From the NCBI GenBank assembly GCA_016215105.1, contig JACRLJ010000037.1, positions 1 to 64,000 on the forward strand: DNA of 64,000 nucleotides, written 5' to 3'. Below the pieces are notes generated by a model. It was not told where the DNA came from, ran no database searches, and was given only the letters and a program-made list of their open reading frames with translations. This stretch comes from Candidatus Hydrogenedentota bacterium (GTDB lineage Bacteria; Hydrogenedentota; Hydrogenedentia; Hydrogenedentales; SLHB01). Made by a program: the position numbers and the translations under genes. How positions within the stretch are numbered: position 1 is the first letter of the stretch; every line of letters starts with the position of its first letter. Positions 6,715 through 63,058 of the stretch are shown in pieces.

Positions 6715-9700
6715 CTAGGAGGCGTTCCAGACTTGGGCGATATCGCCGGAAGTCGTAATGACCGTCAACCCGTCTGACGTAAAAAGTCCATTCCGAACTG
6801 CTCCGGGCGGCAGCGGAAGGGCGGCCATTTCGGCGCCCGACCGGACATCCCAGAGCTTGGCGGCTCCGGTGCTGGACGAAGTGAGGATGCGTTGACCGTC
6901 GGGGCTGAAACATAATCCACTCACATCAAAATGATAGGCGGGCAGCGAGAGAATCTCCTGCCCATCGAGCGACCAAATCTTCACGAAGCCATCCGAGGAG
7001 CGCGTCGCTATTTCCTCTTGATTGGGGGAGAACACGGCCCCGAGGACGTCGTTCCTGTGGCCGCGCAGCGTCGCCAACTCCTTCCCTGAATCGACATCCC
7101 ACAGTTTGGCGGTCATATCGCCCGATGTGGTTACCACTTGCCTACCGTCGGGACTGAAGATCGCCGCTGAGAGTCCACGTGTGTGGCCCGACAAGACACG
7201 AAGCTCGCGTCCTGACGCGGCATCCCAAATTCGCGCCGTCAGATCACCCGATGAAGTGACTATCTTTGTCCCAGACGGGTCGAAACTCGCGCTTCCTACG
7301 CCCTCAGTGTGTGCTATTAGCGTTTGTAGCTCCGCGCCCGTGGTCGTATCCCAGAGCTTTGCGGTGGCGTCGAGAGAGGCGGTCACGACGCGGGTTCCGT
7401 CGGGGCTGAATTCGGCGTCAGTTAGCTGTTTGGTATGCCCTTTCAACGTGAGAAGCGCCTGACCTGTCGTGGCATCCCAAACAATGGCCGTGGTGTCGCT
7501 GGACGAGGTCACAATGCGAGACTCGTCGGCGCTGAAATGAGCTGTGACGATGTTGTGACTATGGCCGGAGAGGGTCAGAAGCTCGCGCCCCGTTCGCGGC
7601 TCCCAAACCTTTGCCGAACCGCTCTGATAGGCCGTGATGAGGCGGCTTCCATCTCGATTCACGGCGAGTGCGGTGGCGTCGCCGGCGTTTCCGTTCAACC
7701 TGCGCTGTTCGGGCGTCGCCGGATGGAGGACGCTCCAAATCTTTGCGGTTCCGTCCGTTGACGCCGTCACAATATGGGCGGCGTCGGGGCTGAAGTCCGC
7801 GGCGTTGATCGCGTTCGAATGGCCATGCAGTGTGGCTAGTTTTGAGCCGGATTCGGCGTCCCACAGGCAGGCCGAATTGTCCGTTGACGCCGTCACAATA
7901 TTGGCGCCATCCGGACTGTACCGCGCTTTCATGCCCCCTTCTTGATGACCGGGCAGCGTCAAGAGCTCCGCGCCGGTTTGTGCGTCGAACACTTTTGCGT
8001 AGCCGGCGCGGAAAGCTGCGGCAATTCGGGTACCATCCGGACTGAATGTTGCGTCACAAAGTTTTCCATCCCGGCCATCAATAACGATTAGGTTTTCGCC
8101 GGAGTCAGCGTCCCAAATGTGAACCGTATTGTCCGCCGCCCGAGTAAGCATACGGGCTCCATCGGCGGTGAAGCTGGCGCTCATGACCGCGCCGCCATGG
8201 CTAAGCGAACGAACCTGTTGCCCTGTCGAGGCGTCCCAAACTTTGGCCGTCGCGTCAGCAGACACGGTGATAATGTCCCTGCCATCCGGATAGAACCTAG
8301 CCATCCTGAGTCCGGCCGTGTGGCCAACCAGGGTGAACATTTCCTTTCCTGAAGCCGCATCCCATACTTTCGCAGTCTTGTCATCGGAGGCCGTTACGAC
8401 ACGTGTCGCGTCTGGGCTGAACTCAGCAGTCATGACCCAGTCTGTGTGGCCGGTCAGTGCGACACGCTCATTGCCAGACGCCGCATCCCAGATCTTCGCG
8501 GTCTTGTCATAGGAGCAAGTAACGATCTTGGTTCCGTCGGAACTGAAATGGGCTTGCTCAACCGGGTCGGTGTGACCCGTGAGTGTGCACAATACGGCTC
8601 CAGACGCTACGTCCCACACTTTCGCGGTGGAATCGTCCGACGCGGTCAATATGCGTTTTCCGTTCGGGCTGTACTCGGCCCACGGCACGGCGTTTCCATG
8701 CCCGGCGAGCGTGCGTTCGTCGAGGTGGCAGAGGCGATAGTAGAACTTCCACTCCCAGTTCCGCAGTTGTTCCGGCGCCCGTTCCAGCGCCTGCATGGCT
8801 ACATCGTAGCGTCTGCTATCGACACTTTCCCGCGCGAGAAAGATGCACGAGATGTACAGTTGCCGTTCGGCCGCCTCGCGCTGTTGTGCTTCCTGGTCGC
8901 GCGCCACGACGGCATCGTTTCGGGCTGCTACTGCGTCGTTGCGCGCAACGACCGCGCGATCACGTTCCTGCCGGACTTGGACGTACGAGACCGCGGCGAC
9001 CACGATCAGAGCGGCGATGCCTGCCGCCGCTGTCACCAGCTTGGTTTTGTGGCGTCGCACAAACCGGTTTAGGTGTTCGCTGAATCGGTACGCATATGCC
9101 TGAACCAGCGCGCCCTCCTGGAATCGCCGGATCTCCTCCGCGAGTTGCTTTGCATTCGCATAGCGATTGGCGGGAAGCGAGTCCATAGCCTTCTCGCAGA
9201 TGGCGATTAATTCGGGCGGCGCGTCCGAAACGTGGTCGCGGATGGGTTTCGGACGCTCGTTGGCGGCTTGGGCCAGGATGGCCTTGACGGTCTTTCCATC
9301 GAGTGGCAATGCGCCCGTCAACAACTCGTACAATACCGCCCCGAGTGAATACACGTCGGAACGTTCATCCACTGACTCCAGTTGACCCCGTGCTTGCTCG
9401 GGCGCCATATAGACCGGCGTTCCCAGCGCTTCTCCATAGTGCGTCTTCACCGGGCTAGGCGAATCGTCAATTTGCATGGCGCGAATTGTCTCTTCGAGCG
9501 TGCCCAGATGGACGTCCTCCTTGTCGATTACCTTCGCGAGGCCCCAATCAATGACTACAGTTTCCCCGAAGTCGCCAATCATCACGTTATCCGGCTTAAT
9601 GTCGCGATGAATTACTTTGCGGGCATGGGCGTACGCGATGGCTTGGCAAAGATCGAGGTAGTGGGGGAGATAGGCCAGGCGTTTTTCAAGGCTTGTGCTT

Positions 9701-10401
9701 TCGTGCAGCGCCTTGCCGAGGGTCATCCCGCGGACGAGTTTCATCGTGTAGTATAGATGCCCGTCCCGCCGCCGGCCCATCTCGTATACGGGGACGATAG
9801 AGGGATGCTCCAACTGACCGGTGATCCGCGCTTCCTGAAGGAATCGGTGTACCACGGGCATTAGGTTCCGTACCGGCGTGTTCGGCATAACGGTGGTAGC
9901 GTCAGACGAGACTGATGGCAGCAACTCTTTTAGCGCGATATCCCGGCCCAGGTGTTGATCGTGGGCCAGCAGCACGCGGCCCATACCCCCGTGGCCGTAT
10001 TGGCTGATATGCGTATAACGCCCCGGGGTTTCTTCGACCGCTGGAAGCATGCCCAACTCGCTATCGGCAATCTCGCTGGAGGTGCTCGGGATATATCGGA
10101 AACCACCGTCTGGCGTGAGCGAGATTACATTCGAGAAGCAGCGACGAATCTGATCCTCGCCGCCAAAGCTTGCCAACGCGTCAGAGTCAATGCCGTTGTG
10201 CGCGCGAATCGCCGCCTCCACAAGGGTCTGGAGCAGCGTACTGTCTTTAGTGGACAGGAGATTTCGGGTGAGCAGGTGGCTATGCAACGGTTGGCTCGGA
10301 TCCGAGGCCCACACTTCCGCCGCTTCGGCGAGCTGGAGCGGAGTTATCTTGTCGAGCTGGACAGCCAGTACGCCAAACAGCAGATTTCGATCTCGGCTCA
10401 C
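6715..10401 (-). CDS. Membrane Ser/Thr protein kinase with WD40 repeats
   Basis: 1228 residues. In order: an N-terminal helical domain (about 1-120); a Hanks-type kinase (about 128-430) with glycine loop GHGGMG (136-141), Lys158, HRDIKPDN (265-272), DWG (285-287) in place of DFG, and MAPEQARG; one membrane segment (about 455-475) followed by a repetitive coiled stretch (RDRAVVARNDAVAARNDA); then about fourteen WD40 repeats from about residue 565 to the end. All catalytic residues are present. The WD40 propeller(s) would lie across the membrane from the kinase and may sense a ligand or scaffold partners. A GAGGGG site precedes the ATG, and a good promoter lies 50-80 bases upstream. Confidence 0.95.
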   Translation of the reverse strand: MSRDRNLLFGVLAVQLDKITPLQLAEAAEVWASDPSQPLHSHLLTRNLLSTKDSTLLQTLVEAAIRAHNGIDSDALASFGGEDQIRRCFSNVISLTPDGGFRYIPSTSSEIADSELGMLPAVEETPGRYTHISQYGHGGMGRVLLAHDQHLGRDIALKELLPSVSSDATTVMPNTPVRNLMPVVHRFLQEARITGQLEHPSIVPVYEMGRRRDGHLYYTMKLVRGMTLGKALHESTSLEKRLAYLPHYLDLCQAIAYAHARKVIHRDIKPDNVMIGDFGETVVIDWGLAKVIDKEDVHLGTLEETIRAMQIDDSPSPVKTHYGEALGTPVYMAPEQARGQLESVDERSDVYSLGAVLYELLTGALPLDGKTVKAILAQAANERPKPIRDHVSDAPPELIAICEKAMDSLPANRYANAKQLAEEIRRFQEGALVQAYAYRFSEHLNRFVRRHKTKLVTAAAGIAALIVVAAVSYVQVRQERDRAVVARNDAVAARNDAVVARDQEAQQREAAERQLYISCIFLARESVDSRRYDVAMQALERAPEQLRNWEWKFYYRLCHLDERTLAGHGNAVPWAEYSPNGKRILTASDDSTAKVWDVASGAVLCTLTGHTDPVEQAHFSSDGTKIVTCSYDKTAKIWDAASGNERVALTGHTDWVMTAEFSPDATRVVTASDDKTAKVWDAASGKEMFTLVGHTAGLRMARFYPDGRDIITVSADATAKVWDASTGQQVRSLSHGGAVMSASFTADGARMLTRAADNTVHIWDADSGENLIVIDGRDGKLCDATFSPDGTRIAAAFRAGYAKVFDAQTGAELLTLPGHQEGGMKARYSPDGANIVTASTDNSACLWDAESGSKLATLHGHSNAINAADFSPDAAHIVTASTDGTAKIWSVLHPATPEQRRLNGNAGDATALAVNRDGSRLITAYQSGSAKVWEPRTGRELLTLSGHSHNIVTAHFSADESRIVTSSSDTTAIVWDATTGQALLTLKGHTKQLTDAEFSPDGTRVVTASLDATAKLWDTTTGAELQTLIAHTEGVGSASFDPSGTKIVTSSGDLTARIWDAASGRELRVLSGHTRGLSAAIFSPDGRQVVTTSGDMTAKLWDVDSGKELATLRGHRNDVLGAVFSPNQEEIATRSSDGFVKIWSLDGQEILSLPAYHFDVSGLCFSPDGQRILTSSSTGAAKLWDVRSGAEMAALPLPPGAVRNGLFTSDGLTVITTSGDIAQVWNAS

Positions 10402-60681: not shown

Positions 60682-60964
60682 TCCATAGTCCTTCGCCGAG
60701 GAAGGGGCCAACGGGGCCGCTTTAGGGCATGGACCTCTTTCGCACTTCCAAGGCTGCGACTTGGGCTTGGGCTGATCCCTGCATATTCCGGGCACGGTCA
60801 TGTAGTGATTCCGGTGTAAATCGGCTACCACTTACGACGAGGCGCCACCGGGGGGCGATTCTATCCCAAGGACAAAAGAGGCTGGCGCGTCTTATCGAGG
60901 ACGACCGAACCTTTTTGTCTCGCAATACGTCCAGTGATTAGAGTGTTAGTGCAGGAGAGACTGG
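60682..60964. other. Upstream region of the ECF sigma-pseudokinase gene
   Basis: No credible gene is present. It carries the ECF-like promoter at 60907-60931 and an AGGAGAG ribosome site before ATG 60965. Confidence 0.5.
60907..60931 (+). promoter_or_regulatory. ECF-type promoter (GAACC-N16-CGTC)
   Basis: GAACC at 60907-60911, a 16-base spacer and CGTC at 60928-60931, 34 bases before the ECF gene. GAAC/CGTC spaced by about 16 bases is the usual architecture for ECF-group sigma factors, many of which transcribe their own genes. I checked GAACC sites elsewhere in non-coding parts of the window by eye and saw no second match. Confidence 0.45.
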
Positions 60965-62590
60965 ATGCACAGGCTGGTGGAGAGGGCCAGGAACGGCGAC
61001 CTGGATGCCTTTGGGGTGCTGGTCAACCGTTACAAGGACATGGCGTACGCGGCGTCTTATGCCATCCTGAGCAACTTCCACGACGCGCAGGACACGGCCC
61101 AGGAAGCGTTCATTCAGGCGTGGCGGAAACTGGACACGCTGAAGGATAATCAGAAGTTTCCGGGCTGGCTGTACCAGATCACACGCAACCTCTCCCTGGA
61201 CCAGCTTCGCCGGGCACGGCCGGAATCCGGGTCCCTCGACGACGTTGTCGAGACCGCGGCCGACGCCGGAGACCGTGATCCCGCACATTGCGCGGAACGG
61301 CGAGAGCTTCAGGAGACTGTTCACGAGGCGGTCCGGTCGCTCTCCGAGGCGAATCGGCTGGCGACGTCTCTGTTCTACATCAACGGATACAGCATCGATG
61401 AAGTCGCGGAGTTTCTGGAAGTGCCGGCGGGTACGGTGAAACGGCGGCTGCACGACGCGCGAGTCAAACTGCGAGAAAGGATGGCCGATATGGTAGAGAA
61501 GGCGCTAAAGAGCAACGCGCTGCCTCAAGGCTTTACCTTGGAGACAGTGATGAAGATAGGGGATTTTGCATGCTTCAAGATAATCGGATACGGGCCAATG
61601 GGCAGCGTGTACATCGCCGAGCACCCGGCATTGAAGCGCAATGTGGCGGTGAAGATCCTCACGGCGGCCTCGCCCGAGGCCTTGGAACGTACCGCTGAGG
61701 AAGTTCTTGTGTATGGCAAACTCGGCCATCCCGGCTTCGTCAAAATCCTCTCGACCGGGGAACACGAAGGGCGCCCGTACGTCGTCACTGAACTTCTTTC
61801 GGGCGGGAGTCTACTGGGGTGGTTGGATGCGCACGAACCAGTCTCGGTGTGGGAAATCCTGCGCATCATGGTACAAGCGGTCGACGCGGTCTGCTATGCC
61901 CACGGCCGCGGGATTGTCATCGGCTGCGCGCGACCGCACCAAATCATGATGTCGACGACCGGCGACGTAGTCATCGTGGATGCCATGTTCAAAATTTCAC
62001 CGGAGGCGCGCAAACGGCTGGGGAGACGGTTGGCGCCGGAATGTCGTGCCAAAGGTCAGCCTGGAACGGCTGCGGACATCTGGGACTTGGGCCTCCTCAC
62101 GTACGAGATGCTGACCGGAAAACCGCTTTTCAGCGAAGACCCGAAAGAAGTGACGCGGGGGGGCAGCCGTGCTTCGCGCGCGACCGACTTGAGGGCACTC
62201 AAAGGTCGCGCGTCGACATGTGTTACGGCTATCGTTGCGAAGTGCCTACAGGAGGCGCCCGAGAACAGATACTCAAGCTCGACGGAGCTGCTCGAAGCAT
62301 TGCGGGAGGCGCAGTTCGCCGAGCTGGCTAAGCTTTCGGATTACGATACGGAGCGGCTACTTCGGGATGTCGATGAGGATAGGTTGGCGGCGGCGTTGGA
62401 CGGTGCGGGCAAGGAAATCGCGAAACATTTGCTCGGGCGCCTGAATAAAGTGGCCGCCGAACGGGTCCGGCAGGAGAGGGCGAACAAACTAGCGAACCAA
62501 GACGCAGCCCGTGCGGCACGCGGCGCGATCGTGGCGACCGCCGACCGGTTGCTCAGGGAAGATCGCATTCGCTTCAGTAGGGTGAGATAG
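60965..62590 (+). CDS. ECF sigma factor fused to a Ser/Thr pseudokinase domain
   Basis: 541 residues. Sigma region 2 (about 8-78; AQDTAQEAFIQAWRKL, FPGWLYQITRN) and region 4 (about 115-172; YSIDEVAEFLEVPAGTVKRR) are complete. A kinase-fold domain (about 197-445) follows: glycine loop IGYGPMGSVY (207-216), VAVK with Lys230, and DIWDLG (371-376). The catalytic loop reads IGCARPHQI where HRDxKxxN is expected, so Asp becomes Cys321, Lys becomes Arg323 and Asn becomes Gln326. DFG is DAM (339-341). It should bind nucleotide at most, not phosphorylate. A basic helical tail (about 455-541) ends it. AGGAGAG precedes the ATG. Confidence 0.93.
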   Translation: MHRLVERARNGDLDAFGVLVNRYKDMAYAASYAILSNFHDAQDTAQEAFIQAWRKLDTLKDNQKFPGWLYQITRNLSLDQLRRARPESGSLDDVVETAADAGDRDPAHCAERRELQETVHEAVRSLSEANRLATSLFYINGYSIDEVAEFLEVPAGTVKRRLHDARVKLRERMADMVEKALKSNALPQGFTLETVMKIGDFACFKIIGYGPMGSVYIAEHPALKRNVAVKILTAASPEALERTAEEVLVYGKLGHPGFVKILSTGEHEGRPYVVTELLSGGSLLGWLDAHEPVSVWEILRIMVQAVDAVCYAHGRGIVIGCARPHQIMMSTTGDVVIVDAMFKISPEARKRLGRRLAPECRAKGQPGTAADIWDLGLLTYEMLTGKPLFSEDPKEVTRGGSRASRATDLRALKGRASTCVTAIVAKCLQEAPENRYSSSTELLEALREAQFAELAKLSDYDTERLLRDVDEDRLAAALDGAGKEIAKHLLGRLNKVAAERVRQERANKLANQDAARAARGAIVATADRLLREDRIRFSRVR

Positions 62591-62840: not shown

Positions 62841-63058
62841 TTACGCGTACGTGTCGCGCCGGTTATCCACCGATACAATGAAGACAATCTGCTTGGTCTG
62901 ATCAACCAGATAGAACACGCGAAAATCGCCGATGCGATACCGCCACGTAGCCGGCGTGTACCCGTAAATCTTCGGATGTTAGGACCAAGGAATAGGTTTC
63001 CGCGAAACTGACGGTAGACGTACTCGTGAAGTCTTCCTGACGGAGGACGGTCGTGCAA
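62841..63058 (-). pseudogene. RelE/ParE-type toxin remnant
   Basis: On the minus strand one frame encodes EYVYRQFRGNLFLGPNIR. After a one-base shift near 62972 another encodes KIYGYTPATWRYRIGDFRVF, YLVDQTKQIVFIVSVDNRRD and TYA-stop (62841). The joined sequence matches the GPNIKKLxGY...WRYRIGDYR signature of a RelE-family toxin group. A lost A in CGAAAG would explain the shift. The N-terminus and an antitoxin are not recognisable upstream, so it is decayed. Confidence 0.72.

Follow-up and report, generated by a model that had tools for sequence, protein, structure and literature searches.

An ECF sigma factor joined to a pseudokinase and a FliG_C domain in Candidatus Hydrogenedentota

In a 64,000-nucleotide stretch of Candidatus Hydrogenedentota DNA (hereafter the window), one gene encodes an ECF sigma factor, a kinase domain that has lost its catalytic motifs and a FliG_C domain in a single 541-aa chain. 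The architecture is conserved in a second genus and a promoter is conserved upstream of the family genes, which have no conserved neighbours. Control of ECF sigma factors by kinases is known, with the kinase as a separate enzyme; in this protein a kinase fold has been taken up by the sigma factor and has lost catalysis. We favour, with some reserve, the reading that this ECF sigma factor works by itself, regulates its own gene and carries its regulator in the same chain.

Domain architecture and homologues

The gene occupies positions 60965–62590 of the + strand, on which all the features described below for this gene also lie. It starts with ATG, and a ribosome-binding site, AGGAG (60953–60957), is found seven bases before it. 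The assignment is based on the open reading frame, Pfam matches and the orthologue L021/L023. Four Pfam domains were matched in the 541-aa protein, all above the curated cut-offs. Sigma-70 region 2 spans aa 19–85 (61019–61219; PF04542 Sigma70_r2, 1.2e-15) and sigma-70 region 4 spans aa 118–169 (61316–61471; PF08281 Sigma70_r4_2, 3.3e-10). They are followed by the pseudokinase domain at aa 204–439 (61574–62281; PF00069 Pkinase, 2.4e-25) and the FliG_C domain at aa 442–536 (62288–62572; PF01706, 5.7e-11, and 1.9e-11 in the genome search). The DxxDxxQE motif of region 2, which contacts RNA polymerase, is intact as DAQDTAQE (aa 40–47). Neither sigma3 nor region 1 had a Pfam match in this protein, which has sigma2 and sigma4 alone, both complete; by domain content it classes as an ECF (group 4) sigma factor. 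The extension past the sigma part, made of pseudokinase and FliG_C, is ~345 residues long.

The first-pass annotation had described both complete sigma regions and a kinase fold in one chain. The single open reading frame and the Pfam matches bear this out, including the kinase HMM check of the C-terminal segment that it had proposed. It did not see the FliG_C domain at 442–536, the shared promoter or the domain-swapping sigma clade.

The triple fusion of sigma, pseudokinase and FliG_C was found in 2 of 68 genomes of the phylum, namely its own and that of another genus of the same family (G009). The collection scan was keyed on sigma motifs of the window-sigma clade, and ECF-kinase fusions in other ECF groups would escape it. 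The G009 protein is encoded by one 536-aa open reading frame, is 52–53% identical over residues 1–538 and has the same Pfam domains (FliG_C, 2e-14). The homologue search suggested earlier for the full architecture thus yielded a full-length orthologue. Amino acid identity between the window and G009 proteins is 63% in sigma2, 73% in sigma4, 59% in the kinase N-lobe and 54% in FliG_C, with 26% in the catalytic and activation region and 36% in the rest of the C-lobe. In the sigma part, the N-lobe and FliG_C, second-position change is low, indicating purifying selection.

The source genome, which is of metagenome type (6.7 Mb, 171 contigs), also has a paralogue on contig C15 (L002:1483-3164; C15:8299-9893). 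Its sigma part is 68% and its kinase-FliG_C part 48% identical to the window protein. This copy consists of two overlapping frames, sigma and pseudokinase-FliG_C, which a net loss of 34 nt at the join has separated. The sigma frame stops just before the kinase, the ATG of the second frame is 15 nt past the first stop, and both frames are open. The tree of the sigma part is (window,(G009,C15)), with support of 99/94; therefore the fusion predates the duplication, and the C15 copy is a secondary split. Since the C15 copy makes separate chains with its frames still open, the covalent sigma-pseudokinase linkage may not be essential.

A search of viral contigs found no relatives of the fusion. No full-length fusion was found among 195 genomes of the phylum of G095, in a search that had no positive control there.

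Predicted promoter and the sigma clade

A predicted ECF-type promoter, AACCTTTTTGTCTCGCAATACGTC, is located at 60908–60931, with AACC as the -35 element, an N16 spacer, CGTC as the -10 element and 34 nt between the -10 element and the ATG. AACC-N16-CGTC precedes all three family genes, 57–58 nt from the ATG, and its extended form is GAACCTTT. In L024 and L027, the planctomycete relatives fused to HEAT repeats, AACCTTT-N13-CGAC lies upstream, so that AACCTTT-N13-CGWC is common to the three family genes and these two relatives. By chance, ~0.01 occurrences of the motif would be expected in an upstream stretch of 160 nt. Among the upstream regions of other ECF genes that were examined, one had a match, at L019, which is a doubtful site.

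ECF sigma factors generally recognize an AAC/CGT promoter consensus and regulate their own genes (PMC3426412); the predicted site matches this consensus. Because an ECF-type promoter is shared by the family genes and the HEAT relatives, self-activation of the window sigma factor through the predicted promoter is likely. The extended site is intergenic in the source genome essentially only before its two family members, which also suggests that the sigma factor probably feeds back on itself. No regulon was visible from the extended promoter in that genome: the remaining matches lie almost all within genes, and their number equals that of a reversed-pattern control. Further targets, if any, would have weaker sites.

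In the sigma tree, the window sigma groups (96/99) with ECF factors fused to a PheS core and with planctomycete ECF factors fused to HEAT repeats. One plain-looking, long-branch ECF also falls within the clade. In the members with fusions, a soluble domain is joined after the same sigma4 tail. The PheS-core and HEAT fusions share their clade and linker position with the window protein but have other C-terminal domains. The HEAT relatives carry a promoter like that of the window gene, whereas the PheS-fused genes lack this motif. The presence of a tRNA-synthetase core or HEAT in the same position in close relatives suggests a sigma chassis that swaps ligand- or protein-binding folds as sensors.

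The planctomycete ECF-HEAT fusions, of the same clade and with the AACCTTT-N13-CGAC promoter, are L024:7953-9056 and L027:7956-9026. The fusions to tRNA-synt_2d, the phenylalanyl-tRNA-synthetase alpha core, were observed in three genomes of the family: L004:1372-2727 (contig C97 of the source genome), L022:847-2088 (G016) and L187 (G011). The tRNA-synt_2d E-values are 7e-29 for L004 and 2e-38 for L022, and L187 was recognized by its full-length match to L022. An aminoacyl- or Phe-sensing role is possible for such a sigma factor, and we consider these fusions at least as striking as the sigma-pseudokinase fusion. The source genome also has many ECF factors in open reading frames of 450–1210 aa (L143–L160), several of them with an apparent membrane stretch and a long C-terminal extension (ECF57-like).

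The pseudokinase and FliG_C domains

We aligned the kinase part of the window protein with active kinases from its own genome and one viral contig. The Gly-rich loop GYGPMGSV (aa 208–215, 61586–61609), the beta-3 lysine Lys230 (61652–61654), the alpha-C Glu246 and Asp339 are all present in the window protein. HRDxKxxN is replaced by the degenerate catalytic loop IGCARPHQ (aa 319–326, 61919–61942) and DFG by DAM (aa 339–341, 61979–61987). Compared with the active kinases, the stretch from DFG to APE is ~10 residues short. The residues listed by the first-pass annotation (K230, C321, R323, Q326, D339 and DAM for DFG) were right on re-reading the sequence, and its account of the motif losses stands; the shortened activation segment had been overlooked.

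HRD is absent from all three homologues, and an intact HRD motif in most members had been named as evidence against a dead kinase. Judged by its motifs, with HRDxKxxN and DFG missing in all three, the fused kinase is catalytically dead. The replacements of HRD differ (GCARPHQ, GIAP-IH and GYIEPNNH), and in one homologue the catalytic loop is one residue shorter. Conservation of the Cys/Arg/Gln substitutions, which had been suggested as a point to check, was therefore rejected, and these changes are not a designed motif.

An AlphaFold2 model of the C-terminal part is a two-lobe kinase with a mean pLDDT of 71, in which the FliG_C portion is of low confidence. The best Foldseek matches of the kinase model were to M. 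tuberculosis PknB, with a TM of ~0.81 over the target. PknB, a Hanks-type kinase, is thus alike in fold, and the closest solved relatives of the 197–445 segment are of this kind. Unlike PknB, the segment lacks the catalytic motifs and the activation loop, and it has no transmembrane or PASTA parts. The full-length AlphaFold2 model had a pLDDT of 53 and was poor outside sigma; an intramolecular interface is not visible in it. The sequence comparisons fit a binding module in which catalysis is lost and the catalytic/activation region drifts, with the N-lobe and FliG_C maintained.

What such a module binds could be a nucleotide. The pseudokinase would hold ATP or ADP through the Gly loop, Lys230 and Asp339, and occupancy would switch the sigma domains; we regard this as possible but not likely. 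The Gly loop (GxGxMGSV), the lysine and the DFG Asp are retained in all three homologues, and the N-lobe is kept at its 59% identity while the catalytic loop drifts, although this conservation could equally mean a protein-binding surface. However, G009 has Thr in place of the alpha-C Glu, and in C15 this residue has been lost. The metal-binding Asn is lost in the window protein and unalignable in the other homologues, and the short activation segment also speaks against nucleotide gating. A broader proposal is that the pseudokinase binds a nucleotide and thereby gates the attached sigma factor allosterically, that FliG_C connects the protein with some other structure of the cell, possibly the flagellar switch, and that the sigma clade takes up dead enzyme domains (kinase, PheRS core) to serve as sensors. 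We regard this proposal as doubtful.

The FliG rotor protein has FliG_N and FliG_M with EHPQ, plus FliG_C with a charged torque region. The window protein has a FliG_C-like domain alone; FliG_N and FliG_M are missing. Alignment with the genome's own FliG showed that its FliG_C has neither the GPxR motif nor the acidic pair, so a rotor role is unlikely. The domain might still tie the sigma factor to the flagellar motor/switch complex by docking to FliM, FliF or the stator, and so report assembly or motor state. All three homologues have a FliG_C score that exceeds the Pfam cut-off. FliG_C matches, most of them true FliG, also occur in the source genome and in 46 of the 68 genomes of the phylum. 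We nevertheless think this link unlikely. The torque-region residues are not retained, no flagellar genes were found among the neighbours, and close relatives have HEAT alpha-solenoids in the same place, which suggests a general interaction domain.

Proposed regulation in cis

NUDIX and outer-membrane efflux genes lie upstream of the window gene and a response regulator lies downstream. No anti-sigma gene was found among the neighbours examined, in agreement with the earlier statement that none is nearby, and no kinase gene was found among the adjoining genes. The neighbours of the three family copies are mutually unrelated, with none conserved, which argues that the gene acts alone.

In ECF41, ECF42, ECF57 and CorE-type factors, a C-terminal extension replaces the anti-sigma factor (PMC8999054). 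By analogy with these extensions, the window sigma factor is most likely controlled in cis by its pseudokinase-FliG_C module, which would respond to a partner protein or ligand. ECF factors with regulatory C-terminal extensions likewise have sigma2-sigma4 and then a soluble domain, no anti-sigma gene nearby and an extension thought to be cis-regulatory (PMC8999054; PMC3426412). The window gene shares the fused C-terminal domain and the lack of a nearby anti-sigma gene. Compared with the known extensions (SnoaL, TPR, WD40, Cys-rich), its own differs in consisting of a pseudokinase and FliG_C.

In the mechanism that we propose, the sigma half (regions 2 and 4) would activate AACC-N16-CGTC promoters, chiefly that of its own gene, giving positive feedback. 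The other half, made of the pseudokinase and the alpha-helical FliG_C-type domain, would stand in for the anti-sigma factor and keep the sigma domains inactive or restrained; binding of a partner protein or small ligand would release them. The working surfaces would be the kinase N-lobe and FliG_C, and phosphotransfer would be unused. We infer autoregulation, restraint in cis and the nature of the signal from the promoter, the domain pattern and the analogy above; the extension might instead activate the sigma factor or merely localize it.

The same domain pattern could be left by a once-active kinase fusion that is losing its function, with the degenerate motifs as a symptom and the C15 copy as a further step. 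The frameshifting deletion at the C15 join, the almost unconstrained catalytic/activation region and the presence of the fusion in just two phylum genomes are what such decay would give. But both fused copies are open over 536–541 codons, the sigma part, N-lobe and FliG_C are under purifying selection, and a conserved promoter lies at a constant distance from the gene, which makes decay quite unlikely.

It is very improbable that the domain is an atypical active kinase which uses displaced catalytic residues to phosphorylate the sigma half of its chain. Lys230 and Asp339 are retained, and phosphorylation by a separate Hanks kinase does occur in ECF43 sigma factors: in EcfP/PknT and EcfK/PknS, a separate active kinase acts on a sigma factor without the acidic motif (PMC13147305). 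In this class phosphorylatable residues replace the acidic DxxD of sigma2.2. The ECF43 factors linked to Ser/Thr kinases resemble the window protein in pairing a Hanks-type kinase fold with an ECF sigma (PMC13147305). In contrast, the window kinase is fused and, by its motifs, dead, its sigma keeps DxxDxxQE and no separate active Hanks kinase is encoded next door, so activation of the ECF43 type would not apply. With the acidic motif kept, the sigma factor needs no charge from phosphorylation. The catalytic-loop Asp, Lys and Asn are replaced, differently in each homologue, and the activation loop is shortened.

That two genes were joined artificially in assembly or annotation, for which the metagenome-assembled genomes and the split C15 copy might be cited, has negligible probability. 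This reading was rejected, since the single-frame join recurs with the same linker in the independently assembled genome of another genus.

With one protein and one predicted self-promoter, this is a compact system in which the effect of the pseudokinase on transcription is directly measurable. The literature searched contained no description of an ECF-pseudokinase or ECF-FliG_C fusion; the main ECF classification and the planctomycete domain-fusion papers were outside its scope, and an earlier mention is possible.

Two other features of the window were recorded. On the - strand, a short frame at ~62846–62985, YGYTPATWRYRIGDFRVFYLVDQTKQIVFIVSVDNRRDTYA, resembles the end of a RelE/ParE-type toxin and is apparently a remnant. 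Also on the - strand, positions 6715–10401 encode a 1228-aa protein that has a kinase domain with intact HRD/D-W-G and C-terminal WD40-like repeats.
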